A stretch of DNA of 64,000 nucleotides from Halobellus rufus (GTDB lineage: Archaea; Halobacteriota; Halobacteria; Halobacteriales; Haloferacaceae): contig NZ_BBJO01000014.1 in assembly GCF_000739575.1 (NCBI RefSeq), forward strand, positions 186,001 through 250,000. Reading direction: 5' to 3'. Below are positions 3,870 through 37,869 of this stretch, piece after piece. Every line of letters starts with the position of its first letter. Within the stretch, counting starts at the first letter, position 1. Under the pieces are notes generated by a model that searched no databases, was not told the origin of the DNA, and worked only from the letters and a program-made list of their open reading frames with translations. The position numbers and the translations under genes were made by a program.

Positions 3870-5246
3870 ATGTCAGGGGACTACGATCATCCGAACCATC
3901 CGAGTGTAGACCAATCCGATAGAACGCTCCCGCGGAACCTCCGACAGACCGGAGACCCCGGGATCGAGATGCTGGTGTCGACGCGAGTACGAAAGTCCCC
4001 CTTCTTCGATAAGTCGTTCAACGAGGAGGGAGCGTGGCGGTGTACGGTGTACAACCGGATCTACCACCCGCGCGGACTCGTCGAGCCCGAGGACGGCGGT
4101 GCGATGGCGGAGTACGAGGCGCTGACGAACACGGTCACGCTGTGGGACGTCGCAGTCGAGCGTCAGATCCGCGTGAAGGGCCCCGACGCGGAGGCGCTCA
4201 CCGACTACGTCATCACCCGTGACGCGACGGAAATCGAGCCGATGCACGGCAAGTACGTCATCCTCTGCAACGAGGACGGCGGCATCCTCAACGACCCGAT
4301 TCTGCTGCGTATCTCCGAGGACGAGTTCTGGTTCTCGATCTCCGATTCGACGCTGATGCAGTGGATCCAGGGCGTCAACGTCGGGAAGGACTTCGACGTC
4401 GAGGTCGACGAGATCGACGTCGCCCCGATGCAGATTCAGGGGCCGCGCTCCGAGGACGTGATGCGGGAAGTCGTCGGTGAAGAAGTCTCCGACATTCCCT
4501 ACTACGGCCTGATGGAGGCCGAGATCAACGGTGCGTCGGTGCTGGTGAGCCAGACCGGCTTCTCCGGCGAGAAAGGCTTCGAGGTCTACGTCCGCGACGC
4601 GATGGAGAACGCCGAGCGCGTGTGGGACCCGGTGCTCGACACGGTCAAAGACCACGGCGGTCGTCAGATCGCTCCCGGTCACCACCGCCGCATCGCCGCG
4701 GGGATCCTCTCGTGGGGCCAGGACATGGACCACGAGACCTCGCCGTTCCAGGTCAACCTCGGCTATCAGGTGCCCGACGACAAGGAGGGCGACTACATCG
4801 GCAAGGAGGAGCTCGAACGGCAGAAGGAGCTCATCGAGAACGGCGAGTACCCGTTCAACCTCAAGCTGGTCGGACTCAAGATGGCCGGCGAGCCGATCCG
4901 CGATTACGCCTCGGACTTCTGGCTCATCTCCGACCCCGAGACGGGCGAGGAGTGCGGCTACATGACGTCGCCGTGGTGGAACCCGGATCTGGAGACGAAC
5001 ATCGGCCTCGGCTTCGTCCCCGCGGAGAAGCTCGAGGACGCCGCGCAGGCCACGCTCGACGACGAGATCTACGAGAACGACCTGGATCTCGAATTCGAGG
5101 TCCACCTCCCCGACGAGTACGCCGAGGAGGAGGGCGAACCGGTGTTCGCCACGGTCTCGGAAGTGCCGTTCAAGGAGTCGGTCAATCCGAGCGCCCGCGA
5201 ACAGGCGAAGCTCGGCGCGAAGCAGGAAGCCCAGCAGAACGACTGA
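3870..5246 (+). CDS. DmdA/GcvT-like THF-dependent demethylase
   Basis: A 458-residue aminomethyltransferase-family protein. An N-terminal STRVRKSPF followed by TVYNRIYHP, then WDVAVERQIRVKGPDA, NDPILLRISEDEFWFSISDS and VAPMQIQGPRSEDV follow the layout I recognise from dimethylsulfoniopropionate demethylase (DmdA) more than from glycine-cleavage T protein; a GCV_T C-terminal barrel occupies roughly 350-450. DmdA moves a methyl group from DMSP to tetrahydrofolate, giving 5-methyl-THF. That product would need the MetF-type enzyme encoded at 7909-8766. Substrate here is unproven; glycine betaine or another methylated osmolyte is possible. The start at 3870 (ATGTCAGGG) is preferred over the long upstream extension, which has no family character. 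Confidence 0.82.
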   Translation: MSGDYDHPNHPSVDQSDRTLPRNLRQTGDPGIEMLVSTRVRKSPFFDKSFNEEGAWRCTVYNRIYHPRGLVEPEDGGAMAEYEALTNTVTLWDVAVERQIRVKGPDAEALTDYVITRDATEIEPMHGKYVILCNEDGGILNDPILLRISEDEFWFSISDSTLMQWIQGVNVGKDFDVEVDEIDVAPMQIQGPRSEDVMREVVGEEVSDIPYYGLMEAEINGASVLVSQTGFSGEKGFEVYVRDAMENAERVWDPVLDTVKDHGGRQIAPGHHRRIAAGILSWGQDMDHETSPFQVNLGYQVPDDKEGDYIGKEELERQKELIENGEYPFNLKLVGLKMAGEPIRDYASDFWLISDPETGEECGYMTSPWWNPDLETNIGLGFVPAEKLEDAAQATLDDEIYENDLDLEFEVHLPDEYAEEEGEPVFATVSEVPFKESVNPSAREQAKLGAKQEAQQND

Positions 5247-5423
5247 GGCAGTCGACGTCGCTGGCTCGGAGATCGGCGATCGAAACTGGCCGGTTTCGTT
5301 TTTTGACGTCCGAGCGATCCGAGAGCGACGAGTGTAGACGGTTCATCGGCCACAAGTGGGACAGGAATGCGTCCCGCCGGAGAGACGACCGGTGCGGCGT
5401 CCCCGCCCCAGTGGACAGCGACG

Positions 5424-6242
5424 CTATCCCGTGAGCGTCACCGGCCGGTCGGCCGACAGCATCACGTCCTGAGCGATGCTCCCGAGGAGAACCTTCTGGA
5501 CGCCCGAGCGCTTCCGCCCGCCCATCACGATTCCGTCGGCCTCGCGGTCCTCTGCCGCCGCGAGGATCTTTCTGGTCACCTCCCCGCCGGTCGCGACGCG
5601 CTCGACCGCGACTCCCTCCGCTTCGAGCCGATCTGCCGCCGCCACCGCGGCACCGATCTCCGCGAACTCGTGCGGCGGCGCGCCGGCGTAGTCCTGATGG
5701 GGGAACACGTACAGCACCGTCGCGGAAACGTTGTTCGCGGGGTCGGGAAGGCCCGCGACGTAGTCGGCCTGCTGCCGCGCTCGCTCGACGTTGCGATCGA
5801 CCGGGACGAGTAGTTCCCGCGGCCCGCCGTCGAACGCCATCCCGGTACCCGTGATCGTCACTGGGCGTTCGGTCGAGACGAACACCTCGCGGACGGTGCT
5901 GCCGAGCAGCAGCGGCGCGACGCCGGATCGCTTCCGCCCGCCCATCACGATCTCGTCGCTGTCGAGTTCGTCGGCGATCCTGACGATCTCCTCGCCGACG
6001 CCGCCGTCACCGACGCGACGGGCTACCTGTACCCCCTGCGATTCGAGGTGCGCCGCGGCCGCCATCGCCGCCTCGAACTCCGCGAATTCGACGTCTTCGG
6101 CGGTGCCGAGACTACTCGGAGGAGCCACCGCCAGCACCGTGGCCTCGATCGCGGATTCGGCGTCGGGGAGGCTCGCCACGTACCGCGCCTGATTGAGCGC
6201 CCTGTTCTCGTCGTCGTCGACGGGGACGAGCATCTGATACAT
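5424..6242 (-). CDS. tandem universal stress protein (two UspA domains)
   Basis: A 272-residue product with two UspA repeats: MYQMLVPVDDDENRAL... and ELLVPVDRNVERAR.... Each ends with the nucleotide-binding signature GGRKRSGVxxxLLGS followed by RPVTITG or RPVTLTG. UspA domains of this GxxG type bind ATP and are linked to stress or transporter regulation. I start it at the ATG at 6242. The same frame stays open far upstream only because the frameshifted rimK-like gene runs into it, so a predicted 771-residue fusion would be an artefact. Confidence 0.85.
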   Translation of the reverse strand: MYQMLVPVDDDENRALNQARYVASLPDAESAIEATVLAVAPPSSLGTAEDVEFAEFEAAMAAAAHLESQGVQVARRVGDGGVGEEIVRIADELDSDEIVMGGRKRSGVAPLLLGSTVREVFVSTERPVTITGTGMAFDGGPRELLVPVDRNVERARQQADYVAGLPDPANNVSATVLYVFPHQDYAGAPPHEFAEIGAAVAAADRLEAEGVAVERVATGGEVTRKILAAAEDREADGIVMGGRKRSGVQKVLLGSIAQDVMLSADRPVTLTG

Positions 6243-6346
6243 CTCACAGTAAAGTTCGTGATAGACACGGATATAGCCGAGGTGTCGTTCTAGCAGAACA
6301 AAAACGACGCCAGCAAGGGGGACGGACCGCTTGGCGCGGTGGGGAC

Positions 6347-7682
6347 TCACTCCTCGTCGTCCACCTCGGCGTGGTCTTCGACCCTCCGACTGACGTCGAG
6401 GCGGTAGTGCTTCAGAATGTCCCGTCCCAGCAGGAGCGGGTGAGTCATGTGCGTCCGGTCCTCGATGTTGGCCGCGACCGTGTACTGGTCGCCGCCGATG
6501 CCGACGACGAGGTCGACGACGGGGCGGGTCTTGGCCTGTTTCGAACTCCCCGAGCGCACGCGCGAGTGTCGTGTGGATCGGCCCCGCGCCGATGGCCGCG
6601 GCGAGTCGGAGGTCGATACTCGTGCTGGCGGCCCCTGTGTCCGATTTGGCGATCACGGTTTTCGTGCCGCTGCTCCCGCTGACGACGACGCGCTCGGTGA
6701 ATCCGATCGTCACCACGCTCTCGGAGGACTCCGCCTCCGGGACGGGCTTGCAGGCGGGCACCGAATCGTCGAGCGTCGAGGCGAGCTGTTCGACCCGCTC
6801 GTCGGCGACGCTTCCGCCGGCGAGTTCGATCGCCTGTCTCGCGATGTACGGGGCGGGGCTCCGACCCGTCGCCTCGTAGAAGCCCTTGAACCCGGCGGTC
6901 GGGTTGACCTCCAGGACGTACCACGTGTCGCCGGAGCCGATCAGATCGACGCCCGCGTAGTCGAGCCCCAGCGCCGACGTGGCACGACGGGCCATATCGA
7001 GGACTTCCGGGGGCGCGGTCTCGCTCGCGTTCTCGACGCGCCCGCCGCGTGCGACGTTCGTCCGCCAGTCGCTCTCGGCGGCGTAGCGGAACATCGCCCC
7101 GATCACCTCGTCGTCGACGACGTACACCCGGAGGTCACGCGGCGTGTCGCGATCCCGACCGATCAGCTCCTGGAGAAACGCCCGACGCTTGCCGACGCTC
7201 GCTGTCAGCGGATCGTCCGTCTTGACCCGCCAGACGCCGCCGCCGTGGGTCCCGATGGCGGTCTTGTACACCGCCTCCTCGCCGAACTCCCCGCGCAGCC
7301 GGTTTAGCTGCGCGTTCGAGAGCGCCAGCGCCGTCTTCGGCACCGGAATACCCTCGTTGAGCAGCGCGATCGCGCCGGCGGTCTTGTGTGCCGCCCGAGC
7401 GGTCGCGCCCGGCGCGTTCAGCATCGGTCGGATGCCGGCGAGCGTGTGCGCGAGTCCCAGTTCCTCGGCCGGCTGCTCGCTGTTCGAGAGCAGCAGCCGG
7501 TTCACGATCACGTCGACGTCCGGACTGAACTGGGCGTCACCGTCCCCGAAGCGGACGACCGTGTTCTCCTCGCGGAGCCACTCCGTCTCGTGGCCGAGTG
7601 CGTCGATGGCGTTCAGGATGGCTTTGGTTTCCTTGCTGTTGTGGAGGCTCAACACGCCGATGCGCGCCGCGGAATCAGCCAT
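6347..7682 (-). CDS. RimK-like ATP-grasp ligase fused to retropepsin-like (Zn-protease) domain; frameshifted near 6559
   Basis: The first part (7682 to about 6560) is a RimK-family ATP-grasp protein: N-terminal RIGVLSLHNSKETKAIL, then KTAIGTHGGGVW, and the metal/ATP site WYVLEVNPTAGFKGFYEATG. A RimK-linked protease-like domain follows with the aspartic motif SDTGAASTSIDLRLAAAIGAG. The domain continues in a second frame from about 6559 (VRSGSSKQAKTRPVVDLVVG to the TGA at 6347). A net +1 base (or -2) near 6559 separates the halves; removing one base gives a 444-residue protein. RimK relatives ligate glutamate to proteins or small molecules; the fused domain occurs in haloarchaeal homologues. 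Either a sequencing indel or real disruption. Confidence 0.75.
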
Positions 7683-7908
7683 CCTCGACCCCGCAGTAGC
7701 GACTGTCGCCGTTCGAGTGCATACTCCGACGCAGCGCACTGAGCGCCATTGTTACAGACACGCAAGTGCGAGAGGCCGCGTTTTCAACACCTAAGAACGG
7801 CGGTACATCCGTCCTACTCCGAAGACCGGGGTCCCGGGCGGGCGCGACGCGGCGGACGGTACACGGAGAGGGGAAGAAGGGGAGAGGTCTGGAGAGGGGT
7901 GAGAACAG

Positions 7909-8766
7909 CTACTGAGCCAGTTTCCGCTGCCGCCACTCTTCGAGGTCGGGCGTCTGATTGAACGTGTAGAGGTGCAGACCCCGGAGCTTGTACGTGTCGT
8001 CGCCGACGTACGGGGCGAGCCCCTCCACGAGGTCGTCGGGCTTGTAGCGGCCGCGAGAGCCGATGAACTGCTTGATGAAGCCCACGATACCCGTCGTCTT
8101 CCGGAGGAACTTCACCGAGTCGCCGACGCCCACCTTCCGCGAGATGCCGATGAGCTTCTCGTATTTCATCACGCCGGGGATCCCGACTTCCACCGGGAGG
8201 TCGATCCCGCGGTCGCGGATCTCCTCGATCCACTCGATGATGGTGTCCGGGTCGTAACACAGTTGCGTGACGATGTACGTGGCGTAGGGCGCTTTCTTCT
8301 CCATCGACTCCACCAGTTCGGCGTCGGAGATGAAGTCGTGTCCCTCGGGGTAGCCCGTGATTCCGATCTCCTCGAACTCGTGGTCGAGGTCGTCGAGGGC
8401 GACCAGCAGGTCGTAGGCGGACTCGAACTCTCCGACCGGCTCTTCCTTGTCGCCGCCGGGGACGAAGATGTCCGTGATGCCGACCTCTCGCAGTCGCCCG
8501 CAGATCTCGTCGAGTTCGTCGGGCCCTTCGATGTATCGCGCGGCGATGTGCGGGATCACCTCGTATCCCGCCTCCGCGGCCGCGACGCACTTTTCGACCG
8601 TTCGGTCGATGCCCAGTTGCGGCGAGGTCGTGATCGCGACGCTCGCCCCCTCCGGGAGGTGTGAGAGCTCCTCCTCGAAGCTATCGAAGGGCATCAACTC
8701 GAACCGAACCGAGGTCAGGAGTTGGCTAACACCGTCTGAACTTCCGTGCTGGGTGGCTACAGACAT
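7909..8766 (-). CDS. methylenetetrahydrofolate reductase family protein (MetF-like)
   Basis: A 285-residue TIM-barrel protein with MTHFR-like segments: FELMPFDSFEEEL, VAITTSPQLGIDRTVE, IPHIAARYI (the HITCRD-like strand), IFVPGGDKEE, and TQLCYDPDTIIEWIEEIRDRGIDLPVEVGIPGVM. MetF interconverts 5,10-methylene-THF and 5-methyl-THF using flavin. In DMSP demethylation pathways a MetF-type enzyme runs in the oxidative direction to recycle 5-methyl-THF. Its position about 2.7 kb from the DmdA-like gene fits this, although the two are on opposite strands. It could alternatively serve methionine synthesis. Confidence 0.82.
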   Translation of the reverse strand: MSVATQHGSSDGVSQLLTSVRFELMPFDSFEEELSHLPEGASVAITTSPQLGIDRTVEKCVAAAEAGYEVIPHIAARYIEGPDELDEICGRLREVGITDIFVPGGDKEEPVGEFESAYDLLVALDDLDHEFEEIGITGYPEGHDFISDAELVESMEKKAPYATYIVTQLCYDPDTIIEWIEEIRDRGIDLPVEVGIPGVMKYEKLIGISRKVGVGDSVKFLRKTTGIVGFIKQFIGSRGRYKPDDLVEGLAPYVGDDTYKLRGLHLYTFNQTPDLEEWRQRKLAQ

Positions 8767-8838
8767 CGATATTGAACGAACGTATGGGGTCTACTTTTGT
8801 CTACTGGCGAGCGGTACGGCTGCTCGGACGTGTGGCGG

Positions 8839-9984
8839 TCACGACCCATCGGGTGCTGACTCCCGTATTCTGGCGGCCACGTCCTCGGCGGTGACTTCGC
8901 GGTCGGGGGCCGACGCCACCCGTCGCAAGACCAGATCGAGGACGTTGAGCTGCCGCAGGAGCTGTCGAGTGCGGTCGTGCTCCAACCCGAGTTCCCGCTG
9001 GACCTCGTGGACCGTCCGCGCGTCGAGAACGGCGTCGACGACGTCGTGCAGCGTCAGTCGCTCCGGGAGCCCGATCCCGTCGGTGACCAACTGCTCGTCG
9101 GGGAGTGACTCCGTCGAAACGGCGTCGGATTCCGGTTCGCGGTCGGTTCCTCCGGCGTTCGGTCCTTCCACCGAATGCGCTTCGTGGCTTCTCGAAGCCG
9201 TTGAGTCGTCCGCGCCGTCAGCCTCCGCCGCTTCGGCCGGGTCAGGATCCTCCGCAGCGCCGGTCTCGTACGACGCCGGAGAGTGAACGCCCGCGTCGAT
9301 CATATACCGGCGGACGGTCTCCGCGGAGACGTCCATCTCGATCCGTCGGCTCATCTCCTCGAAGGTGTCGCAGACGTCGTACAGTCGGGCGAGATAGCCC
9401 GTGTCGTCGTACGGCGGCACCGACTCGTCGCGGACGGCCGCGAGCGACGTCGGATCCGCCTCGTTCTCCGTTCCCGGAGAGCCACCTCGGGCCGCCGACG
9501 TTCCGCCGCGGGTGAAGTCCTCTGTCGGTTCGAGATCCTCGGGTGAACCGGTCTGCTCCTGTGCGTCGGTCGCGGCCGCCGGTTCCGTCGGGGTGCCCAC
9601 GGCCGCCGCGTCGATCGTGACCGTCAGCGTGAGGATCACTCCGTCGTCTTCGAGTCGGACGTCCGTCGTCGTCGTCGACATCGAGATGTCCTCCGGCAGA
9701 TCCACGGCCGGCCCGCCGTCGGGATTCGACGGGAACACCGGGAGCCGGACCGCGATTTCGAGGTCGTCGACACCGCCGTCCGGCGACGACCGATCGGAAT
9801 CGTCGCTCGCCTCCACGCCGAGCGCCTCCGAGAGCGGAACTGCGACCTCGACCGTCGAGCGCAGCGGTCCGTCCGCGTCGCCACCGGCAGCCGCCTCGGC
9901 CCGTCGCACGGTCCGGTCCCCCGAACCGAGGCGATCGAGCACCCGCGAGAGCGCGTCGAACGAAGACTGCGGCTGCATCGCCAT
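8839..9984 (-). CDS. uncharacterised haloarchaeal HTH-like protein
   Basis: A 381-residue acidic protein. The N-terminal half ends in a beta-rich stretch (LEIAVRLPVFP, VRLEDDGVILTLTVTID), followed by a low-complexity linker. The middle segment LYDVCDTFEEMSRRIEMDVSAETVRRYMIDAGVH looks like a DNA-binding helix-turn-helix seen in other haloarchaeal proteins. A second predicted HTH-like region, LTLHDVVDAVLDARTVHEVQRELGLEHDRTRQLLRQLNVLDL, lies near the C-terminus. The ATG at 9984 (MAMQPQSSFDALSRVL) is preferred over an upstream extension. I infer DNA binding but cannot name a target; it lies directly upstream of metF on the same strand, 72 bases away. Confidence 0.7.
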   Translation of the reverse strand: MAMQPQSSFDALSRVLDRLGSGDRTVRRAEAAAGGDADGPLRSTVEVAVPLSEALGVEASDDSDRSSPDGGVDDLEIAVRLPVFPSNPDGGPAVDLPEDISMSTTTTDVRLEDDGVILTLTVTIDAAAVGTPTEPAAATDAQEQTGSPEDLEPTEDFTRGGTSAARGGSPGTENEADPTSLAAVRDESVPPYDDTGYLARLYDVCDTFEEMSRRIEMDVSAETVRRYMIDAGVHSPASYETGAAEDPDPAEAAEADGADDSTASRSHEAHSVEGPNAGGTDREPESDAVSTESLPDEQLVTDGIGLPERLTLHDVVDAVLDARTVHEVQRELGLEHDRTRQLLRQLNVLDLVLRRVASAPDREVTAEDVAARIRESAPDGS

Positions 9985-10096
9985 TGTACTGCTAGCAACC
10001 AACACATTGTGATTGGTTAACGCTACGTGCGGAATGGTGAGGGTATTAAAAACCGGTACAGACGTCGACCCGTCCAGAGCCGTCGGCTCGACAGCG

Positions 10097-11049
10097 TCAG
10101 GAATCAGCGGCGATGCTCGCGACCCGTTCGCCGGTGACGACGACGCCGCCCCGCGAGACGGAGTACAGAATGCCAGCGCCGCTCGCGGTGACGGTCTCCA
10201 GCCGTTCGAAGGACGACGGGTCGAACACGGCACCCAGTTCCTCGTCGGCGTCGACGGCGTCGCCGACGGCGAGGTCGGCCCGCAGCTCGAAGAGACCCGA
10301 CATCTCGGCGACGACCCGCGGGACGTCGTCGGAGAGGACCCGTTGGTCCGAGGTCGACTCGACGGGTTCGTCTACGACGCCGAGTTCGCGGAGGACGTTC
10401 CAGACGCCCTCGACTCCGGACTGGACGGCCGGGCGTCGCACGGTTCGGCTGTTCGAGAGCTCCGCGGTGATCGCCGGAACGCCGGCCCGTGCCGCCGCGA
10501 GACGGAACTTCCCGGCGAAGTCGTCGCCCTCGAAGGGGTCGTCGTCAGCGAGGAGTGCTCGGTCCCGAACGCCTCCGCGAGCGCCCGCGCGTCGTCGTCG
10601 CCGCGGCTGAACCGGACGTGTTCGAGCATCTGCGGCATCCCGGTGTGGAGATCGACCGCGACGTCGCTCTCCTCGACGAGCGGCCAGAGGTTCGCGACCA
10701 GCCGCTCCTGAAAGCTGCCGTCGCGGTCGCCGGGCCAGATGCGGTTGAAGTTCGAGTGAAACGCGTCGTAGGCCTCCGGCGTCAGATACGAGCGGTGGTC
10801 GAACGCGAGCGGGTTCGTGACCGGGACGGCGACGACCGTCCCCGCTATCTCGGCGTCGAGGAGGCGGTCGTGGAGTCGCCGGAGCGCCGCGGGGCCGTTG
10901 AGTTCGATGCCGTGCTGGGCCGCCTGCGCGAACACCGTCGGCCCGTCGCCGCCCTCGTAGCGGTGGACGGTCACGGAGACGTCGCGGCCCGAGGGAAATC
11001 GCCCGAGCAACCGATCGGACGCCGTGTGGGTCACCGAGTCGTAGGTCAT
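10097..11049 (-). CDS. succinylglutamate desuccinylase/aspartoacylase family protein; frameshifted near 10553
   Basis: The first frame carries the zinc-peptidase-like core of the AstE/AspA family: QAAQHGIELNGPAALRRL (HxxE motif), VVAVPVTNPLAF, FNRIWPGD, and DVAVDLHTGMPQ. After FGTEH the frame degenerates; the sibling frame continues sensibly as LADDDPFEGDDFAGKFRLAA, then AITAELSNSRTVRR and the C-terminal barrel, ending at 10097. A single missing base near 10553-10554 explains the switch; restoring it gives 317 residues. Family members deacylate N-acyl amino acids; the substrate here is unknown. It is divergent from the creatininase-family gene. Confidence 0.75.
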
Positions 11050-11180: not shown

Positions 11181-11912
11181 ATGCACCTGGAGCGAGAGAC
11201 GTGGACCGACGCCGAGGAGTCGGCGGCGGAGGTGGCGCTGCTCCCCGTCGGGAGCACGGAACAACACGGCCCGCACGCCCCGCTCGGCACCGACACGCTG
11301 GACGCGGAAGCCGTCGCCGAAGCCGCCGCCGAGCGGTACGCCGACCCCGTGGTCGTCGCGCCCGCGATTCCGGTCGGGATCGCCGAGGAGCACCGGGAGT
11401 TCGCGGGGACGCTGTGGACGACCGAATCGACCTTCCGCGCGTACGTCCGCGACGTCGTCGGGAGCCTCGCCTCGCACGGCTGGGACCGCGTCGTCGTCGT
11501 GAACGGCCACGGCGGCAACATCGCGGCGCTAAAGGAGGTCACGGCCCAGATCGTCCGCCACGACGACGCCTACGCCGTCCCGTTCACGTGGTTCGACGAG
11601 GTGGGCGAGCACAGTTCGGAGATGGGCCACGCCGGGCCGCTGGAGACCTCGCTGCTGCGTCACACGAACCCCGAAACAGTGCACGAGGACCGCCTCGACG
11701 AGGCCGCCGAGGGGGGAAGCGCCCGCTGGGGGAACTGGCAGGGCCGGGTCAACCTCGCCGTCGACTCCCACGAGTTCACCGACAACGGGGTCGTCGGCGA
11801 CCCGCGCGAATCGAGCGCGGAACTCGGCGCGGAACTGTTGGAGCGGTCCGCCGACGCGCTCTGTGCGCTGCTCGACGAGGTCCGCGAGCGCGACCCCGGG
11901 CCGCGGATCTGA
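11181..11912 (+). CDS. creatininase family amidohydrolase
   Basis: A 243-residue protein with the metal-binding segments of the creatininase family: LLPVGSTEQHGPHAPLGTDT near the N-terminus, VVVVNGHGGN in the middle, and GHAGPLETS. Creatininase opens creatinine to creatine, which other enzymes convert to sarcosine. An archaeal relative, ArfB, instead deformylates an intermediate of riboflavin/F420 synthesis, and sequence reading alone cannot decide between them. Its place 213 bases upstream of a DMG/sarcosine dehydrogenase on the same strand makes a link to methylated amines possible but unproven. Confidence 0.8.
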   Translation: MHLERETWTDAEESAAEVALLPVGSTEQHGPHAPLGTDTLDAEAVAEAAAERYADPVVVAPAIPVGIAEEHREFAGTLWTTESTFRAYVRDVVGSLASHGWDRVVVVNGHGGNIAALKEVTAQIVRHDDAYAVPFTWFDEVGEHSSEMGHAGPLETSLLRHTNPETVHEDRLDEAAEGGSARWGNWQGRVNLAVDSHEFTDNGVVGDPRESSAELGAELLERSADALCALLDEVRERDPGPRI

Positions 11913-12092: not shown

Positions 12093-12125
12093 GCCCGTGA
12101 CACCGTCACCCTGAGACGAACACGA

Positions 12126-26252: not shown

Positions 26253-27998
26253 ATGTCAGATAGCGACGACGGAGGGATGTCCGACGGGTTGCAAGTAGAA
26301 CTGTTCCATCCGGAATCGGACCGGAGCCCGGGAGACACCAACATCCAGCGGTTCGGGTTCGACATTCACCCGATCGTCTTCCCGGTCGCACTGCTGTTGA
26401 TCGCGGTGTTCATCGCCGTCACCATCCTTCTCGGAGACCAAGCGGCGCAGGCGTACAGCGCGGTTCGTGGGTTCTTCGAGGGCAACTTCGGATGGTTCTA
26501 CCTACTCGCGGTGAACATCTTCATCGTAACCATCCTGTACTTCGCGCTCGGCCGGTTCGGAACGATCCGGATCGGCGGCGTCGAAGCCGAAAAGGAGTTC
26601 TCCGACTTCGCGTGGATGGCGATGCTGTTCAGCGCCGGTATGGGGATCGGCCTGATGTTCTTCAGCGTCTCGGAACCGCTGTACTACGTCTCGAACGTGC
26701 CAGGGTTCTTCGGCGCTGAGGCAGGGACCGGCGCAGCCGGTGTCGCCGCGATGACGCAGACGTTCTTCCACTGGGGCTTCCACCCGTGGGCGATCTACGG
26801 CCTCGTGGGACTCGGGTTGGCGTTCTTCTCGTTCAACCGCGGGCTCCCGTTGACGTTCCGATCGATCTTCTGGCCGCTCCTCGGTGAGCGAATTTACGGG
26901 TGGCCGGGTCACCTCATCGACCTGGTGACCGTCTTCGCGACGCTGTTCGGACTGGCGACGTCGCTCGGACTGGGTGTCGCACAGGTCAACACCGGTCTCT
27001 CGTACGTCCTCGGCGATATGCTCGGTCTCGTGAGCATCCCGACCGGGACGATGCCGCAGGTAGTGCTGATCGCCGGGATCACCCTGATCGCGACGATTTC
27101 GGTCGCCGCCGGTCTCGAAAGCGGCGTCAAGCGGCTGAGCACGATCAACCTCTATCTGATGTTGACCCTGCTCGGCTTCCTCATCGTCGTCGGCCCCACG
27201 CTCTACATCTTCGGTGCGTGGGTCGAAGGCCTCGGCGCGTACTTCGGTAACTTCCTCTCGCTCGCGTTCTTCACCGGGACGCTCGGCGAGGGTGGCGGCA
27301 CCGTCGGCGCGTGGACCGTGTTCTACTGGGCGTGGTGGATCGCCTGGTCGCCGTTCGTCGGGATGTTCATCGCGCGTATCTCGAAGGGCCGGACGGTCCG
27401 CGAGTTCGTGATGGGCGTGCTGTTCCTGCCGTCGCTGTTCTCGACGCTGTGGCTCGCCGCGTTCGGCGGGAGCGCACTGCAGAACACCCTCGTCGGTAAC
27501 GGTGCGGCGCTGGCGACGTACAACGAACTCGGACAGACCGTCGCGATGTTCGCCCTGCTGGAGCAGTTCCCGCTCGGGGCCATCTCCGGGCTGCTCGCGA
27601 CGCTCCTGGTGATCACCTTCTTCGTCACGTCCTCTGACTCGGGGTCGCTCGTCATCGACCACCTCACCTCCGGTGGCAAACACGACGTCCCGAAGGTCCA
27701 GCGGATCTTCTGGGCCGTCACCGAGGGCGCGGTCGCTGCGGTCCTGCTCATCGGTGGCGGACTCAACGCGCTGCAGACGGCGGCGATCGCGACCGGCTTC
27801 CCGTTCGCGATCATCCTCGTGTTGATGTGCTACACCGTCTATCAGGGACTGAAGAACGAACACGAGATCCTCTCCTCCGAGCAGTTCGCCGAGCGGATCC
27901 AGGATCTCACGGAGCAAGACGAGGTCGACGTCGTCACCTCGGGTAACGAGACCGTAACGGAGATTCGCGGCGGCGCAGAAACCGAGGGAGGTGACTGA
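26253..27998 (+). CDS. BCCT family betaine/choline/carnitine transporter (1)
   Basis: A 581-residue protein with 12 predicted spans. Segment FSAGMGIGLMFFSVSEPLYY carries the GMGIG glycine motif of Na+-coupled betaine carriers, and FYWAWWIAWSPFVGMFIARISKGRTVREF is the BCCT aromatic-box signature. The soluble ends are acidic. It probably imports glycine betaine or a similar osmolyte, which supplies the demethylation enzymes encoded on both sides. Haloarchaea also use such carriers purely for osmoprotection. Strong SD sequence and a long AT-rich leader precede it. Confidence 0.92.
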   Translation: MSDSDDGGMSDGLQVELFHPESDRSPGDTNIQRFGFDIHPIVFPVALLLIAVFIAVTILLGDQAAQAYSAVRGFFEGNFGWFYLLAVNIFIVTILYFALGRFGTIRIGGVEAEKEFSDFAWMAMLFSAGMGIGLMFFSVSEPLYYVSNVPGFFGAEAGTGAAGVAAMTQTFFHWGFHPWAIYGLVGLGLAFFSFNRGLPLTFRSIFWPLLGERIYGWPGHLIDLVTVFATLFGLATSLGLGVAQVNTGLSYVLGDMLGLVSIPTGTMPQVVLIAGITLIATISVAAGLESGVKRLSTINLYLMLTLLGFLIVVGPTLYIFGAWVEGLGAYFGNFLSLAFFTGTLGEGGGTVGAWTVFYWAWWIAWSPFVGMFIARISKGRTVREFVMGVLFLPSLFSTLWLAAFGGSALQNTLVGNGAALATYNELGQTVAMFALLEQFPLGAISGLLATLLVITFFVTSSDSGSLVIDHLTSGGKHDVPKVQRIFWAVTEGAVAAVLLIGGGLNALQTAAIATGFPFAIILVLMCYTVYQGLKNEHEILSSEQFAERIQDLTEQDEVDVVTSGNETVTEIRGGAETEGGD

Positions 27999-29164: not shown

Positions 29165-31621
29165 TCACTCCCGGGTCAGTCGACCTTCCGCCACGCGGAG
29201 CGCCGAGGTGTTTTCCTCGACGTCGTGGACGCGGACGACGTCAGCGCCCCGGTCGGCAGCGATCGCCGTTCCCGCGACCGTCGGCGTCAGTCGCCCGTCG
29301 TCGGCGTAATCGACGCCCTCGAACATCGACTTCCGCGAGTGCCCGATCAGTACCGGACAGCCCAGCGCCCGTAACTCCGCGGCGCGGTCGATGAGGGCGA
29401 ACGACTCCTCGGGGGACTTCCCGAATCCGCAACCGGGGTCGACGACGACCTTCTCCGGGTCGATCCCGGCCCGTTCGGCCCGGATGAGCTGTTCGTTGAG
29501 CGCGTCGATGACGTCTTCGACGACGTCGTCGTAGACCGGGGTGTCGTCGGGGTCGACGGGGATCGAGTGGCTGTGCATCAACACGAGGGACGCGTCGTGC
29601 TCGGCTATGACGAACGGCATCTCCGGATCCGCGAGCCCGGAGACGTCGTTGACGATGTCCGCGCCGGCCGCGAGGGCCGCGTCGGCCACCTCGGCCTTCC
29701 ACGTGTCGACGGAGATTGGGGCGTCGAGGTCGGCGAGCGCCTCGATCACCGGGACGACTCGGTCGATCTCCTCGGCGGCCGGGACCGGGTCCGCGCCGGG
29801 GCGGGTGCTTTCGCCGCCGACGTCGATGATCTCCGCGCCCGCGTCGACCAGCTCCTGCGCGCGGTCGACGGCCGCGTCGACCGCCTCGTACTCCCCGCCG
29901 TCGTGAAAGCTGTCCGGCGTCACGTTGAGAATGCCCATCACGGCCGTGTCGTCGCCGCCGAGCGGGCCCAAGCCGGCCTCGTTCGGAGGGTCCTGCGGTC
30001 CGAGCTGTTCGCGCAGTTGCGTCGCGACGTGCCGGAGTCCCAAGTCCGCGTCCGCGAGTTCGGAGACGAGCTCTCGGAGCCCCGTGGTCGTGCCCGCGAT
30101 CACCGTCGCGACCAGTTTCTGTGGGCTGCCCGCCCGCGAGCGGCGGCAGTCGACGCCGACTGCCGTTGCGAGGTCTGCGACCCGTTCGGCCTGGTCGGGC
30201 CGGAGGTAGGTCCTGAACACGCGTCGGTCGACGTCCGCGGCGGTCACTGGTCCGCCCGGTGAACCCGCGGTCGGGACGTCGAAGGCCGCACCCACGAAGG
30301 ACGCGTCCACGTGCGCCTCCCGGGGTCGAACGACGGGCACCAGCGTGCGGGCCCAGCGGTCCCGCGCCTCCGCGACGGCGTACAGCGAGCCCGTGACGAG
30401 GACGAAATCGTCGGGGTCGGCGGCTTCGATGGCGGCCTCGGTGGCTTCGGCGACCGACGGCACGACCTCGACGGCGTCGGCGCGGGATTCGAGCGTTTCG
30501 GCCAGCGCGTCGGGCTCTGCGGCCCGATCGAGGTCCGGTCGGGTCGCGTACGCCGACGCAACCGGCGGGAGTGACGCGACCATCTCGTCGTGGTCTTTGT
30601 CCGCCATCGCGCCGAAGACGAGATGGAGGTCGTCGTAGGTGTAGCGGTCGAGGAGGGCCGAGAGCGTCTCCGCCGCGCCGGGGTTGTGCGAGCCGTCGAG
30701 GACGGTCATCGGCTCCGTGGACATAATCTCGAAGCGCCCCGGCCAGACGACCGATCGGAGTCCCATGGCGATGGTTTCGGGATCGACGTCCGCGATCTGT
30801 CGTGCGAGCGTCGCCGCGACGCCGGCGTTGGCGGCCTGGTGTGCGCCCAGAAGTGGAAGCTGCGTCTCGACCGACCAGTCCGGACCGGCGATCCGCACGT
30901 CGCTTTCGACCGCCGAGTGCATCCCGCGTTCAATCGCGACGACGTCCGGGCGATCCCCGTCGGTCCCCTCCTCCGTCCCCACCGCGACGACCTCGGTGAT
31001 CTCGCGGATCGCCTCGAGGGCCGCGCCGGTCGCTCCCGTGACGAGCGGGGCGTTGGCGGGCGCGACCTGCGCCTTGTCGCGCGCGATCTCCTCGACGGTG
31101 TCGCCCAGCAGTTCGGTGTGTTCGAGGCTGACGCTCGTGACGGCGCTCGCGATCGGGTCGACCGCGCTCGTCGCGTCGTACCGCCCGCCGATCCCGACCT
31201 CGAGGATAGCCACGTCGACGTCCATCTCGCTGAAGTGCCGTAGCGCGAGGGCGGTCAGGACCTCGAAGTGGGTCGGTTCGTCGTCGATCTCGCGGAGTCG
31301 GTCGATGCAGGGAGCGATCTCCTCGACGTACGTCGCGAGTTGGGACTTCGGAATCTTTCGGCCGTCGACCTGCACCTGTTCGCGGAAGTCGTTCAAGCCC
31401 GGCGAGGTGAAGATACCCACGCTGACGCCCGCTCGCCGCAGCACGCTGTCCAGCATCCGGGCGGTGCTCCCCTTCCCGTTCGATCCCGCGATCTGCACGC
31501 AGTCGACGTCGTCCTGTGGGTCGTCGAAGTGCGCGAGCATCTGCGCCGTGGTCTCGATACCGAGTTTCGGCCGCCGCTGCTGGAACGAGGTGAGGTAGTC
31601 GGCCGCCTCGTGGTATTTCAT
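29165..31621 (-). CDS. folylpolyglutamate synthase/dihydropteroate synthase fusion (FolC-FolP)
   Basis: 818 residues. N-terminal FolC (about 1-430): VQIAGSNGKGSTARML P-loop, GIFTSPGLNDFREQV, TSVSLEHTELLG, and VLDGSHNPGAAE. C-terminal FolP (about 540-818): MGILNVTPDSFHDGGEYE, GGESTRPGADPV, VVDPGCGFGKSPEES and IGHSRKSMFEG. Such fusions are known in haloarchaea, where FolP joins pterin to p-aminobenzoate and FolC adds glutamate. It supports THF supply for the surrounding one-carbon genes. It shares a divergent intergenic region with formate-THF ligase. Confidence 0.95.
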   Translation of the reverse strand: MKYHEAADYLTSFQQRRPKLGIETTAQMLAHFDDPQDDVDCVQIAGSNGKGSTARMLDSVLRRAGVSVGIFTSPGLNDFREQVQVDGRKIPKSQLATYVEEIAPCIDRLREIDDEPTHFEVLTALALRHFSEMDVDVAILEVGIGGRYDATSAVDPIASAVTSVSLEHTELLGDTVEEIARDKAQVAPANAPLVTGATGAALEAIREITEVVAVGTEEGTDGDRPDVVAIERGMHSAVESDVRIAGPDWSVETQLPLLGAHQAANAGVAATLARQIADVDPETIAMGLRSVVWPGRFEIMSTEPMTVLDGSHNPGAAETLSALLDRYTYDDLHLVFGAMADKDHDEMVASLPPVASAYATRPDLDRAAEPDALAETLESRADAVEVVPSVAEATEAAIEAADPDDFVLVTGSLYAVAEARDRWARTLVPVVRPREAHVDASFVGAAFDVPTAGSPGGPVTAADVDRRVFRTYLRPDQAERVADLATAVGVDCRRSRAGSPQKLVATVIAGTTTGLRELVSELADADLGLRHVATQLREQLGPQDPPNEAGLGPLGGDDTAVMGILNVTPDSFHDGGEYEAVDAAVDRAQELVDAGAEIIDVGGESTRPGADPVPAAEEIDRVVPVIEALADLDAPISVDTWKAEVADAALAAGADIVNDVSGLADPEMPFVIAEHDASLVLMHSHSIPVDPDDTPVYDDVVEDVIDALNEQLIRAERAGIDPEKVVVDPGCGFGKSPEESFALIDRAAELRALGCPVLIGHSRKSMFEGVDYADDGRLTPTVAGTAIAADRGADVVRVHDVEENTSALRVAEGRLTRE

Positions 31622-31976: not shown

Positions 31977-33698
31977 ATGGCCTCCGAAGACGAGGGCGGT
32001 TTCCCAACAGATTACGAGATTGCAACGAAAGCGGAGAAACAACCGATCGGCGACGTCCTCGAACCGTGGGGCGTCGGCGACGACGACGTCGAACTGTACG
32101 GCGACTATAAGGCGAAACTGTCGCACGACGCCGTAAGCCGGCTTCGTGACAACGCCGAGAACAAGGAGGGCAACCTCGTGCTCGTGACGGGGATGACCCC
32201 GACGCCGATGGGCGAGGGCAAGACGGTCACCACCGTCGGCCTCGGCCAGACGCTCAACCACGTCGGCGAGGACGCGATGATCGCGATCCGCGAACCGTCG
32301 CTCGGGCCGGTCTTCGGCGTGAAGGGCGGCGCGGCCGGCGGCGGCTACTCGCAGGTGCTCCCGATGGAGGACATCAACCTCCACTTCACCGGCGACCTCC
32401 ACGCGCTCACCTCCGCGCACAACCTCATCGCGGCGATGCTCGACGCGAAGATCTCCCAGAGCGACGAGATCGACATCGACGTCAACGACGTCGCGTGGCC
32501 GCGCGCGATGGATATGAACGAGCGCGCACTCCGCGACATCGTCATCGGCCTCGGCGGGTCCTCCGGCGGCACTCCCCGCGAGAGCCGCTTCCTCCTCACG
32601 GCCGCCTCCGAGCTGATGGCCGTCCTCTGTCTCGCCGAGGACCTCGCCGATCTCAAAGAGCGGGTCGCCCGCATCATCGTCGCCTACACCGAGGACGGCG
32701 ACCCCGTCACCGTCGACGACATCGACGCGACCGGCCCGGCCTCGATGCTGCTGAAGGACGCGATCAAGCCGAACCTCGTTCAGACGCTCGAGGGCACGCC
32801 CGCGTTCGTCCACGGCGGCCCCTTCGCGAACATCGCCCACGGGACGAACTCCCTCATCGCCGACAAGGCCGCCTTCGGGATGGGCGATTACCTCGTCACT
32901 GAGGCAGGCTTCGGCTCCGATCTCGGCGCGGAGAAGTTCATGAACATCGTCTGCCGCCTCGGCGACATGACGCCGAACGCGGTCGTGCTCGTCTCGACTG
33001 TCCGCGCGCTGAAGTACCACGGGATGGGCATGTGGCCCGCCGACCTCGAAGAGGTCAAGGAAGCCGGCGTCGACGAACTCGAAGCCGGGTTCGCGAACCT
33101 GGACAAGCACGTCCGGAACCTCCAGAAGTTCGGCGTCCCGGTCGTCGTCGCGCTCAACCGCTTCCCCGACGACTCGGACGAGGAGGTCCAGGCGGTGCTC
33201 GATCACTGCCGCGAGGACCTCGGCGTCCGCATCGCCGAGTCGAACGTCTTCGCCGAGGGCAGCGAGGGCGGCGTCGACCTCGCCGAGAACGTCATCGAGG
33301 CCGTCGACGAGGGCGACGAGGACGAGTTCGACCACCTCTACCCCGACGACGCCCCGATCAAAGAGAAGATCGAGACCGTCGCGACCGAGGTCTACGGTGC
33401 CGACGGCGTCAACTTCACGGGCGGCGCGGAGGACGACATCGAACGGCTCGAAGACCTCGGCTTCGACGACGTCCCGGTCTGTCTCTCGAAGACGTTCCAC
33501 TCCCTGAGCGACGACCCCTCGAAGAAGGGCGCGCCCTCGGGCTGGGAGCTGGAAGTCCGCGAGCTGTACCCCTCCGCGGGTGCCGGCTTCATTGTCGCGC
33601 TAACGGGCGACGTCCTCGACATGCCGGGCCTCCCGGCCGTGCCCGCCGCCGCGGGGATGGACATCGACGAGGACGGCAACATCAGCGGCCTGTTCTGA
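31977..33698 (+). CDS. fhs: formate-tetrahydrofolate ligase
   Basis: 573 residues, close to the family length. VTGMTPTPMGEGKTVTTVGLG is the ATP-binding P-loop; EPSLGPVFGVKGGAAGGGYSQV, MEDINLHFTGD, TGPASMLLKDAIKPNLVQT and FANIAHGTNSL are conserved. The enzyme links formate, ATP and THF with 10-formyl-THF; in methyl catabolism it runs toward formate and ATP. The start at 31977 (MASEDEGG) removes a long unsupported extension through the AT-rich control region. Formate dehydrogenase lies about 2 kb downstream on the same strand. Confidence 0.96.
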   Translation: MASEDEGGFPTDYEIATKAEKQPIGDVLEPWGVGDDDVELYGDYKAKLSHDAVSRLRDNAENKEGNLVLVTGMTPTPMGEGKTVTTVGLGQTLNHVGEDAMIAIREPSLGPVFGVKGGAAGGGYSQVLPMEDINLHFTGDLHALTSAHNLIAAMLDAKISQSDEIDIDVNDVAWPRAMDMNERALRDIVIGLGGSSGGTPRESRFLLTAASELMAVLCLAEDLADLKERVARIIVAYTEDGDPVTVDDIDATGPASMLLKDAIKPNLVQTLEGTPAFVHGGPFANIAHGTNSLIADKAAFGMGDYLVTEAGFGSDLGAEKFMNIVCRLGDMTPNAVVLVSTVRALKYHGMGMWPADLEEVKEAGVDELEAGFANLDKHVRNLQKFGVPVVVALNRFPDDSDEEVQAVLDHCREDLGVRIAESNVFAEGSEGGVDLAENVIEAVDEGDEDEFDHLYPDDAPIKEKIETVATEVYGADGVNFTGGAEDDIERLEDLGFDDVPVCLSKTFHSLSDDPSKKGAPSGWELEVRELYPSAGAGFIVALTGDVLDMPGLPAVPAAAGMDIDEDGNISGLF

Positions 33699-34406: not shown

Positions 34407-34571
34407 ACGCCAACCTCGGGCGCGAGGGTTCTCAGACTGTCGGCTCACAGCCGTCGGGGTGAACGCAGGCAGCTGTCGCGGACGTCGAACGCGAGCCTCG
34501 ATGGTTCGGGCGAATCCAAGAATCTGAGGATCTGCGGGTCCGTTTTTATTTGCGATGTCGAAGTCGGTGGT

Positions 34572-35513: not shown

Positions 35514-35754
35514 ATCGGGTCCCGGGAACGCCAGACACCGCTATCGACCCCTAGCAGCGAGCCTCACTGAGACGCCCGTCGACGGCGGCGTATCGAGCAC
35601 GGTTTTTCACCGCTGGTCATTACTTGTATTCCGGGTAAAACGGCGACCTGACGCTTTCGTCCGGGATTCTCGGCTGAGGTATGTGAGAAAGATTCATACG
35701 CTTGGCAGGGAAGGATTCGAACAGAGATGAGCCACAACGCGGAGGGAACACAGT

Positions 35755-37869
35755 ATGTCGAGTGAAGAACAGGAACCGGTGAAAACGATCTGTCCGTACT
35801 GCGGCGTCGGCTGCGGCATCCAAGTGATGCCCGGCGAGGAGCCCAGCGATATGCGCTTCATGCCGTGGGGCGACGCGCCGGTCAACGACGGCCGGGTCTG
35901 CATCAAAGGCGGCGCGGCGACGCAGGTCGTCGACCACGAGGACCGACTCACCACGCCGCAGATCAAAGAGGACGGCGAGTTCCGCGAGGCGACGTGGGAG
36001 GAGGCCTACGAGCGCATCGTCGAGGAGATGGAGGGGATCCGAGAGGAGTTCGGCCCCGACGCGATGGGCTTCTTCGGCTCCTCGAAGACGATGAACGAGG
36101 AGAACTACCTCCTCCAGAAGCTCGCGCGACGCTACGGCACCAACAACGTCGACAACTGCACGCGGATGTGCCACGCCTCGACCGTCTGGGCGCTCCGGAC
36201 GAGCCTCGGCGCGGGCGCGATGACCAACAGTATGGAGGACCTCCAGAACGAGGCCGACGTGCTGTGGATCCAGGGCGCGAACCCCGCCGAACAGCACCCC
36301 ATCGCCAACAGCAACTACTTCCGACAGGCGGTCCTCGACGGCGCGACCGTCATTCAGGTCGACCCCCACGCGAACAAGACGACCCGCTCGTTCGACATCG
36401 AGGAGACCGAGCGCCACCAGCACCTCCAACTGGAGCCCGGCACCGACATCCCGCTCCTCAACATCGTCCTCAAGACGGTGCTGGAGAACGACTGGGTCGA
36501 CGAGGAGTTCGTCGAGGAGCGCACCGAGGGCATCGAGCACCTCCGCGAGACGCTCGAAGACTTCGACAAGGAGGCCGCCGCCGAGGAGTGCGGCGTCCCG
36601 CTCGAAGACATCGAACTCGCGGCCGAGAAGTACGCGAAGGCCGACAACGCCGCCATCTTCACCGGGATGGGGATGAGCCAGCACACCTGCGGCGTCGACA
36701 ACGTCCAAAACGAGATCAACCTCGCGCTCATCACCGGCAACCTCGGCCGGCCCGGCACCGGCGTCAACCCGCTGCGCGGCCAGAACAACGTGCAGGGGAC
36801 CTCCGACGTCGGCGCGATGCCGAACGTCCTGCCCGGCTACCAGCTCGTCGACGACGACGAGGCGCGCGAGAGCGTCGAGGACGTCTGGGGATTCGAGATC
36901 CCCGACGAGCCCGGCCTGACGAACGTCGAGATCACCGGCGCGATCGGCGAGCAGATCCAGGGGATGTACGTGATGGGCGAGAACCCGATCATGTCCGAGC
37001 CCAACGCGAACCACGTCGCCGACCTGCTCGACGAACTCAACTTCCTCGTCGTTCAGGACATCTTCATGACCGAGACCGCGGAGTACGCCGACGTGCTGCT
37101 GCCGGCCACGACGTGGGCAGAGCGCGGCGGGACCGTCACCAACACCGACCGTCGCGTCCAGCGGATGCGCGGCGTGGAGAAGGTCCACGAGAACACCAAG
37201 CACGACCTCGAGATCCTCTGTGAGGTCGGCACGCGCCTCTTCGGCGAGGGCTTCGACTTCGACACCCCCGAAGAGGTCTTCGAGGAGCTTCGACAGGTCT
37301 GCCCGAGCTACCACGGGATGACCTACGACGCGCTCGGCGAAGAGGGCATCCACTGGCCCTGCTACGAGCCCGGCGACGAGGGCGACCAGTTCCTCTACGA
37401 GGACAGCTTCGACACCGAGAGCGGACTCGGCCACATCGAGGGCGTCACCCACCAGCCCCCGAAGGAGGTGCCCGACGACGAGTACCCGCTCATCCTCACC
37501 ACCGCGCGCCTCGAAGAGCACTACAACACCGGGACGATGAGTCGCCGGTCGCCGCGGCTCAACAACCAGTACCCGGAGAACTTCGTGGACGTCCACCCGA
37601 ACGACGCCGAGCGCTACGGCATCGAGGACGGCGAGACGATCAAAGTCAAGTCCCGCCGCGGCGAGATCGAACTCGAAGCGCACGTGACCGAGGACATCAA
37701 GGAAGGCGTCATCTGGACGACGCCGCACTTCGCCGCCGCATCGGCGAACAGACTCACCAACGACGTCCTCGACGAGCGGGCGAAGATCCCCGAGTACAAG
37801 GCCGCCGCGGCCGAGATCGAGGTCGGCGTCGAGCCGAGCGGATCCGAGAACGCACCCGCGGACGACTGA
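35755..37869 (+). CDS. formate dehydrogenase alpha subunit-like molybdoenzyme (Cys type)
   Basis: 704 residues. N-terminal 4Fe-4S ligands are Cys13, Cys16, Cys20 (CPYCGVGC) and Cys49 (VCIKGG). NCTRMCHASTVWAL carries Cys139 at the Mo/W-ligand position that is Sec140 in E. coli FdhH. Later segments GMGMSQHTCGVDNVQNEINLAL, NPLRGQNNVQG and MGENPIMSEPN are typical of FdhA/FdhF, and the C-terminal molydop-binding domain is complete. It would oxidise formate to CO2. No beta or gamma subunit or FdhD lies next to it, so its electron acceptor is unclear. Likely partner of Fhs in methyl-group oxidation. Confidence 0.9.
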   Translation: MSSEEQEPVKTICPYCGVGCGIQVMPGEEPSDMRFMPWGDAPVNDGRVCIKGGAATQVVDHEDRLTTPQIKEDGEFREATWEEAYERIVEEMEGIREEFGPDAMGFFGSSKTMNEENYLLQKLARRYGTNNVDNCTRMCHASTVWALRTSLGAGAMTNSMEDLQNEADVLWIQGANPAEQHPIANSNYFRQAVLDGATVIQVDPHANKTTRSFDIEETERHQHLQLEPGTDIPLLNIVLKTVLENDWVDEEFVEERTEGIEHLRETLEDFDKEAAAEECGVPLEDIELAAEKYAKADNAAIFTGMGMSQHTCGVDNVQNEINLALITGNLGRPGTGVNPLRGQNNVQGTSDVGAMPNVLPGYQLVDDDEARESVEDVWGFEIPDEPGLTNVEITGAIGEQIQGMYVMGENPIMSEPNANHVADLLDELNFLVVQDIFMTETAEYADVLLPATTWAERGGTVTNTDRRVQRMRGVEKVHENTKHDLEILCEVGTRLFGEGFDFDTPEEVFEELRQVCPSYHGMTYDALGEEGIHWPCYEPGDEGDQFLYEDSFDTESGLGHIEGVTHQPPKEVPDDEYPLILTTARLEEHYNTGTMSRRSPRLNNQYPENFVDVHPNDAERYGIEDGETIKVKSRRGEIELEAHVTEDIKEGVIWTTPHFAAASANRLTNDVLDERAKIPEYKAAAAEIEVGVEPSGSENAPADD

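Follow-up and report, generated by a model that had tools for sequence, protein, structure and literature searches.

Glycine betaine ranks among the main osmolytes of saline and marine waters, and research is still establishing how its first methyl group is taken off by aerobic microbes. DmdA, the demethylase of dimethylsulfoniopropionate (DMSP), carries out a tetrahydrofolate (THF)-dependent methyl transfer from an onium compound. Here we describe DmdL, a DmdA-like protein encoded in a 64,000-bp stretch of the haloarchaeon Halobellus rufus (assembly GCF_000739575.1, contig NZ_BBJO01000014.1, positions 186,001 to 250,000 of the forward strand; hereafter the window), and the island around it, in which genes for folate-linked one-carbon (C1) metabolism, dimethylglycine oxidase (DMGO)-type flavoproteins, Etf, a BCCT carrier and an ammonia-lyase lie within 34 kb. 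The original prediction, made from the sequence alone, had read these genes as an integrated, THF-linked island for the catabolism of methylated osmolytes.

The closest described systems each share a part of this gene set. The part of PMC12478193 consulted names GbcAB, Bhmt and MtgBCD as routes of betaine demethylation; these perform the step proposed below for DmdL but are an oxygenase, homocysteine-coupled or cobalamin-dependent, and neither "GcvT" nor "DmdA" occurs in that paper. SAR11, in the sections of Sun et al. (2011; PMC3160333) considered, oxidises the methyl groups of betaine, DMSP and other compounds via THF with dmgdh, sardh, metF, folD, fhs and fdh, a set comparable to the present one, but there BHMT was assigned to the first betaine methyl group and DmdA to DMSP, whereas no BHMT was found in the 79 genomes of the host family searched here. 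For haloarchaea, the excerpts of Anderson et al. (2011; PMC3102087) report DMGO-type genes near BCCT carriers, as in the present island, in H. marismortui, H. walsbyi, H. volcanii and H. turkmenica, and raise from this adjacency the use of betaine, dimethylglycine and sarcosine; a DmdA-like protein, methylenetetrahydrofolate reductase (MTHFR), an association with Fhs and the Rieske exchange described below are not mentioned in those excerpts. In Halodesulfurarchaeum (PMC5437934), Fdh, Fhs, MTHFR, FolD, Etf and GcvT genes are likewise grouped, but they are read in the part consulted as C1 metabolism of formate, serine and glycine, and the word "betaine" does not occur in the paper. The listings of the open-licence literature searched name no betaine demethylase of the GcvT type and no haloarchaeal betaine locus with a DmdA-like protein; of this literature PMC4325475 and PMC8581802, seen in part, served as background only.

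Pfam and NCBIfam scans of 30 window open reading frames (ORFs) between positions 6 and 46058 identified the following central genes, at about the places originally predicted:
3867..5246, forward strand: DmdL, GcvT/DmdA-like (PF01571), proposed glycine betaine:THF methyltransferase
7909..8766, reverse strand: short MTHFR (PF02219), proposed to oxidise methyl-THF to methylene-THF
12126..14675, forward strand: DMGO-A, dimethylglycine/sarcosine oxidase-type flavoprotein with a GcvT domain (best solved relative 1pj5)
14743..15996 (start approximate), forward strand: threonine/serine ammonia-lyase (TIGR01127, 445.9 bits, cut-off 378.75)
17304..18275, reverse strand: EtfA (PF01012, PF00766)
18277..19032, reverse strand: EtfB (PF01012)
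19055..21590, reverse strand: DMGO-C, dimethylglycine-oxidase-type flavoprotein with its N-terminus out of frame
22179..24440, forward strand: membrane Fe-S/CCG oxidoreductase (PF02754, PF13183, PF02665), proposed route from Etf to quinone
26253..27998, forward strand: BCCT carrier of the betaine type (PF02028, 589.7 bits; above the TIGR00842 cut-off)
29165..31621, reverse strand: FolC-FolP fusion (TIGR01499 and TIGR01496, above cut-off)
31995..33698 (start approximate), forward strand: formate-THF ligase Fhs (NF010030, 812.5 bits, cut-off 652)
35755..37869, forward strand: formate dehydrogenase alpha (TIGR01591, 748.2 bits, cut-off 666.25)

These identities suggest a route, to which as a whole (BCCT import, methyl transfer by DmdL, reversed MTHFR, DMGO and Fhs) we assign a probability of roughly 0.58, every reaction in it, including the substrate of DmdL and the direction of MTHFR, being proposed from sequence. 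The BCCT carrier would import glycine betaine, whose three N-methyl groups would be removed through THF. DmdL would move one of them straight onto THF, so that dimethylglycine and methyl-THF are formed, and the nearby short MTHFR would oxidise methyl-THF to methylene-THF, the reverse of the biosynthetic direction. The DMGO-type flavoproteins would oxidise first dimethylglycine and next sarcosine, ending at glycine; their GcvT domains would load the released carbon onto THF to form methylene-THF, and in the DMGO-C branch electrons would reach quinone via EtfAB (and here the membrane Fe-S protein). FolD would convert methylene-THF to formyl-THF, from which Fhs would release formate with a gain of ATP, and Fdh, where present, would oxidise formate to CO2; glycine and methylene-THF would be joined to serine by GlyA, and the ammonia-lyase would yield pyruvate.

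FolD and GlyA are encoded outside the window, as had been predicted for folD, glyA and gcvP. A search of the H. rufus draft genome (G000; 3.85 Mb, 81 contigs, about 95% complete) located glyA (G000:C45:5949) adjoining folD (G000:C45:7656), and gcvP in two parts on G000:C66, so that folD, glyA and gcvP of the SAR11-type THF methyl oxidation pathway are all in the same genome.

The start of DmdL is placed at about 3867 because most orthologue matches begin near residue 80 of the longer ORF, which over-extends to 3627. The protein belongs to the GcvT folate-binding superfamily (PF01571, 149.7 bits against a gathering score of 25.6) and scores below the cut-offs of both the glycine cleavage T protein (TIGR00528, 136.7 against 235.85 bits) and the DMSP demethylase DmdA (NF009133, 241.7 against 410 bits), so it is not a called DmdA; its SAR86 counterpart in locus L165 reaches 266.4 bits with the latter model. 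DmdA is nevertheless the closest curated family, and the best solved relative is 3tfh (153.7 bits; titled GcvT-like aminomethyltransferase), which we take to be Pelagibacter DmdA. Compared with DmdA of Phaeobacter, Antarctobacter and Marinovum and with 3tfh, DmdL shares the GcvT family and, in the alignment, the ERQ and D-S stretches, but it differs in having only about 31% identity, other neighbours and a separate place in the tree. In a tree of 35 chosen rows, nine of them island-type haloarchaeal DmdL, with two forks drawn open and some long deep rows, the DmdL clade (support 100/99) is distinct from the annotated DmdA clade (100/100; three DmdA rows). Also placed in the DmdL clade are proteins from SAR86, other gammaproteobacteria and Roseovarius, which share 63-66% identity with DmdL; the haloarchaeal rows form their own clade (98/95) inside it. 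The nearest named relatives of the host by DmdL are Halobellus species, with 96% identity to H. captivus.

The original description of a DmdA/GcvT-like demethylase thus stands for the GcvT superfamily, whereas membership of the DmdA family was rejected on both the curated cut-off and the clade. Of the two substrates first suggested, betaine or DMSP, glycine betaine is the better candidate and DMSP the less supported one, because of that score, the separate clade and the DMGO-type genes that mark the island. The tryptophan that contacts DMSP in DmdA is W171 in the numbering of PMC7487153, and its equivalent in DmdL could not be placed with certainty; the string "archae" does not occur in that paper, which in the part consulted deals with DmdA evolution.

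Two further groups of relatives were observed. A DmdL paralogue about 70% identical (L074, at G000:C73, and L150-L162) has altered motifs in the aligned rows, NDF for NDP and LGQD for WGQD. Within the 10-kb flanks of its 13 loci none of the island enzymes looked for (MTHFR, DMGO, ammonia-lyase, BCCT, Fhs) was found, and with queries from three of the loci only one ORF apart from the DmdL-type gene itself recurs, in four of the 13. Another DmdA-like clade occurs in alphaproteobacteria (L171, L173, L178, L179); its neighbours in roseobacters are genes for OsmC, an enoyl-CoA hydratase and an acyl-CoA synthetase, and in Lichenihabitans they are MTHFR, purU and folD.

The reductase predicted as MetF-type does belong to PF02219 (53.1 bits against a gathering score of 24), but its 62.1 bits with the classical MetF model TIGR00676 fall far under the cut-off of 293.7. 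Among solved structures it matches 7xg9 best, with 117.2 bits, whereas 1b5t reaches 25.4 bits; 7xg9 is presumably the MTHFR of Sphingobium SYK-6 and 1b5t E. coli MetF. The SYK-6 enzyme is assigned, in the portion of PMC13001107 consulted, to a subfamily that favours methyl-THF oxidation and has co-evolved with LigM-type demethylases. The pairing of a THF demethylase with an MTHFR in that system resembles the DmdL-MTHFR pair, although it is found in a bacterium and acts on lignin-derived aromatics, whereas an N-methyl osmolyte is proposed here. For Ruegeria on N-osmolytes, the part of PMC12478193 cited above also gives a MetF paralogue as the protein whose synthesis differed most.

Residues 10-844 of DMGO-A align to residues 5-825 of 1pj5, a dimethylglycine oxidase, with 580.6 bits, in the full DAO-FAO_M-GCV_T domain order and with the His of the HAPG motif, presumably the flavin-attachment residue, aligned. 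The second flavoprotein ORF (19055-21394) has no in-frame FAD-binding N-terminus owing to a frame change near 21.5 kb, across which full-length DMGO-C relatives (85-91% identical) align; the gene is full-length in the relatives G068 and G033, and the frame change may be a draft error or recent decay, two causes that look alike in this sequence. A full-length DMGO-C relative in L060 is best matched by 1pj5 (459.2 bits), as is DMGO-B (580.2 bits), which stands in tandem with DMGO-A in relatives (L054) and was not found in the H. rufus draft genome, where two DMGO matches occur among the 12 of 32 candidates that were scored. EtfB and EtfA lie beside DMGO-C in the window and in 9 of 10 haloarchaeal regions of relatives (the exception is G015), which suggests that DMGO-C probably passes electrons to Etf; DMGO-A and DMGO-B may be oxidases.

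The island is conserved well beyond Halobellus, as was observed in two overlapping samples of 79 family and 116 class genomes. In the family sample a protein was counted as DMGO if it matched DMGO-A with E no higher than 1e-100; DmdL was counted at E 1e-60 with a single protein (family) or E 1e-120 with an alignment (class), the paralogue being counted in both. Among the family genomes, 38 have DMGO-type genes and 32 DmdL, the latter being present in 31/38 with DMGO against 1/41 without, and the lone exception, G027, has the paralogue only; in the class sample DmdL occurs in 25/33 against 0/83. Combined, the samples hold 57 DMGO genomes, 45 with DmdL, and in 37 of these 45 (25/31 and 12/14, read by hand from match tables) the two genes are no more than 30 kb apart. 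Contexts of up to 40 kb contain DmdL, MTHFR, DMGO, ammonia-lyase, Usp, BCCT, FolCP and Fhs in varying order and orientation and with incomplete membership. Two genomes of a different family in the order, G117 and G125, have a set that comprises DmdL, MTHFR, BCCT, Fhs and Fdh together with DMGO-C and its EtfBA.

The 80 named loci comprise 62 of the island type, 13 with the paralogue and five bacterial ones, each class being counted apart; because flanks were limited to 10 kb and many contigs end early, the counts are lower bounds. MTHFR is found in at least 53 of the 62 island-type loci (40/43 among the full-length ones), separated from DmdL by less than 3.3 kb in 51, and DMGO, ammonia-lyase, BCCT and Fhs in at least 31, 28, 22 and 14, respectively. 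On two SAR86/gammaproteobacterial contigs (L165, L167) BCCT, DMGO-type and DmdL genes are consecutive on one strand, with an Fhs match also at the contig edge in L165. The strains A-GB7 (L121), A-GB1 (L125) and A-GB9-2 (L130), whose names suggest glycine betaine enrichments, carry the DmdL-MTHFR pair; no paper on them was found in the literature search. The integrated island originally proposed is upheld in that its parts stay together across haloarchaeal families while their order changes, and both co-occurrence in related genomes and a folD gene in the host, on which that proposal depended, were found.

DmdL is missing from 12 of the 57 DMGO genomes (G018, G028, G036, G042, G055, G058, G060, G118, G123, G139, G148, G159). 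Eleven of these 12 encode a Rieske oxygenase (PF00848) at most 6 kb from DMGO, against 3 of the 45 with DmdL (distances read by hand; Fisher p 2e-8 by genome, and p 3e-4 by genus, with 7/8 against 2/19). Linked Rieske genes are found without and with DmdL in 7/7 and 2/31 genomes of the family sample and in 4/5 and 1/14 of the class genomes not already in it. In nine of the 11 genomes, compared with one reference (G055 and G060 were left out), the best copies of the Rieske protein are 73-82% and the second copies 63-65% identical to it, and GbcA (NF058607) is the best NCBIfam model for all five Rieske proteins scanned (G028, G139, G074, G033 and H. marismortui, of which two belong to the 11). 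In ten Rieske-type genomes out of these 11, 14-40 kb around DMGO was examined: BCCT is present in nine and ammonia-lyase in eight, and none has DmdL, MTHFR or Fhs in these regions. In the family sample Fhs occurs in 29/31 DMGO genomes with DmdL against 0/7 without; Fhs follows DmdL, not DMGO. A Rieske monooxygenase acting on betaine releases formaldehyde, whereas a THF methyltransferase makes methyl-THF that needs reoxidation. The lack of MTHFR and Fhs near the Rieske genes fits this difference, since a formaldehyde-releasing enzyme needs no methyl-THF oxidation. Both DmdL and a Rieske gene are present on pNG700 of H. marismortui; H. hispanica, a genetically tractable species, carries the island on pHH400, with DmdL (HAH_RS18290) and MTHFR (HAH_RS18285), and the annotated stretch examined there contains no Rieske gene.

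The original prediction had also looked to BHMT or betaine monooxygenase genes elsewhere in the genome for the first demethylation. Neither was borne out: the BHMT family (PF02574) was found in none of the 79 family genomes, that of H. rufus included, in a search that matched 9 of 14 control genomes, and the single PF00848 protein of H. rufus (G000:C58) has a phenylpropionate dioxygenase as its best model (248.7 of 830 bits; GbcA 123.6). DmdL is therefore the best candidate for the first step in this genome. Proteins of the MttB family, which may represent a corrinoid route in haloarchaea, were found in nine of the 79 genomes, all with DmdL (G004, G011, G015, G017, G037, G039, G041, G054, G056), several of their genes lying near Fhs or DMGO; none was found in H. 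rufus. Pyrrolysine in the linked MttB, first indicated by an in-frame TAG in G004, G041 and G017, was dropped, the aligned L049 (G004) and L050 (G017) having no stop.

Several observations weigh against betaine degradation through DmdL. In the excerpts of PMC3102087, betaine gave no growth enhancement in H. walsbyi and H. utahensis did not grow on it. The p-values of the exchange overstate its significance because the genomes are related, and a genome counted as lacking DMGO may still have it, since no more than 12 candidates per genome were scored in the family sample and no more than 8 in the class sample. A linked Rieske gene accompanies DmdL in G024, G074 and G116, and a Rieske gene does so in four of the 62 island-type loci (L118, L148, L149, L163); G118, with a 42% DMGO match only, lacks both. 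The haloarchaeal Rieske proteins reach 131.5-138 bits against the GbcA cut-off of 670, so that the swap partner is only a candidate. DmdL occurs without Fhs in G063 and G075, and in 9 of the 32 family genomes with DmdL an MttB-family protein may do the first demethylation. In G015, G039, G079 and G084 DmdL shares a contig with DMGO but at a large distance, in G005 it is 110 kb away, and in G041, G054 and G068 the two genes are on different contigs. Neither MTHFR, DMGO nor BCCT was found within 10 kb in the Haloquadratum loci L094 and L096, and neither BCCT nor DMGO near DmdL in three of the five bacterial loci (L166, L168, L169).

Other explanations fare less well. That ordinary genes came together by chance, each family alone being common, is next to impossible and was rejected: the short DmdL-MTHFR gap in 51 loci, the co-occurrence and swap counts and a content kept while order changes show that the genes are not grouped by chance. 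Were the island a general housekeeping cluster for THF and formate with the osmolyte genes as passengers, it would resemble HTSR_1736-1750 of Halodesulfurarchaeum, where, in the part of PMC5437934 consulted, no protein in the proteomes is more abundant than a GcvT, and would suit the six family genomes with Fhs and neither DmdL nor DMGO; this reading is very improbable in view of the recurrence of BCCT, DMGO and ammonia-lyase with DmdL in many genera and of the two SAR86/gammaproteobacterial contigs that join BCCT, DMGO-type and DmdL genes.

Two proposals concern the substrate. It is unlikely that DmdL demethylates DMSP or another sulfonium in an island serving both DMSP and N-methyl osmolytes: the closeness of the DmdA family, 3tfh and the shared motifs speak for this, and the score, clade and identity given above against it, as does the outcome of the ORF scans up to 46 kb, which named no family of acyl-CoA ligases, dehydrogenases or hydratases, whereas Phaeobacter DmdA adjoins DmdD and an AMP-binding ligase. 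Rather doubtful, too, is an island that starts at dimethylglycine, sarcosine or a creatinine-like compound, with DmdL acting on another N-methyl compound or handling methylene like GcvT, and with MTHFR supplying methyl-THF for methionine. DMGO alone could feed THF, and hydrolases resembling creatininase (9/62 loci) and AspA/AstE (13/62) lie inside some islands; such a start, however, leaves unexplained both the GbcA-like Rieske gene beside DMGO in 11 of the 12 genomes without DmdL and the fact that Fhs and MTHFR follow DmdL rather than DMGO. A transfer of the betaine methyl group to THF by DmdL is the most economical reading of the protein, and one towards which we lean somewhat.

The remaining features of the window are:
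1716..2366, forward strand: bat-type HTH_10 regulator (PF04967, 63 bits)
5424..7739, reverse strand: RimK-like ATP-grasp fused to Usp domains, accessory, with few relatives
8839..10233, reverse strand: low-complexity protein without a Pfam match
10372..11049, reverse strand: AspA/AstE-type hydrolase (PF24827)
11181..11912, forward strand: creatininase-family hydrolase (PF02633, 237 bits)
34161-35513: extradiol dioxygenase
37965-39794: AFOR
42368..44255, forward strand: second BCCT gene, interrupted by a frame change (family scan; tblastn of a relative's protein)
44829..46058, reverse strand: PabB-like chorismate-binding enzyme (PF00425, 293 bits)

The regulator, both hydrolases, the dioxygenase and AFOR were absent from the earlier gene list. 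Homologues of the regulator and of the low-complexity protein occur in at least 37 and 28 of the 62 island-type loci, whereas the extradiol dioxygenase was rejected as a recurrent member, having no match in the relatives' contexts examined (up to 40 kb). Formate dehydrogenase, placed in the pathway by the original prediction, is present in the window but recurs in only a minority of loci (7/62). The PabAB predicted nearby is supported for PabB (PF00425), and PabA was not confirmed, while ORF 44260-46308, which runs over the PabB gene in a different frame, was set aside; the second BCCT carrier is present as predicted, but a frame change near 43.3 kb splits its gene, the single 618-aa protein of the relative G001 matching here in two frames. 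The first BCCT carrier has the glycine betaine model NF047988 as its best (514.8 bits, below the cut-off of 650). In some islands the AspA/AstE-like and creatininase-family hydrolases perhaps open an N-acyl or creatinine-like precursor. The RimK-like fusion is a neighbour of DmdL in Halobellus and in a small number of other relatives, and a dihydrofolate reductase gene is found directly upstream of DmdL in Haloarcula marismortui (L170, 19264-19761) and H. hispanica (L201, 14266-14763).

That the island is real and best read as one for THF-linked betaine degradation is highly probable. The use of betaine by haloarchaea was itself suggested in 2011 (PMC3102087, in the part consulted), and what is new here, within the reach of the literature searched, is the role proposed for DmdL. 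We see an even chance that it represents a previously undescribed class, a GcvT-superfamily enzyme that transfers methyl groups directly from glycine betaine to THF, requires neither O2 nor cobalamin nor homocysteine, has passed between haloarchaea and marine bacteria (SAR86, Roseovarius) and is functionally interchangeable with a Rieske betaine monooxygenase. If so, DmdL would add a fourth way of starting betaine degradation, in which one THF-dependent methyltransferase would conserve the energy of the methyl group via Fhs with neither oxygen nor B12, and the same protein in SAR86 would extend this point to the surface ocean.

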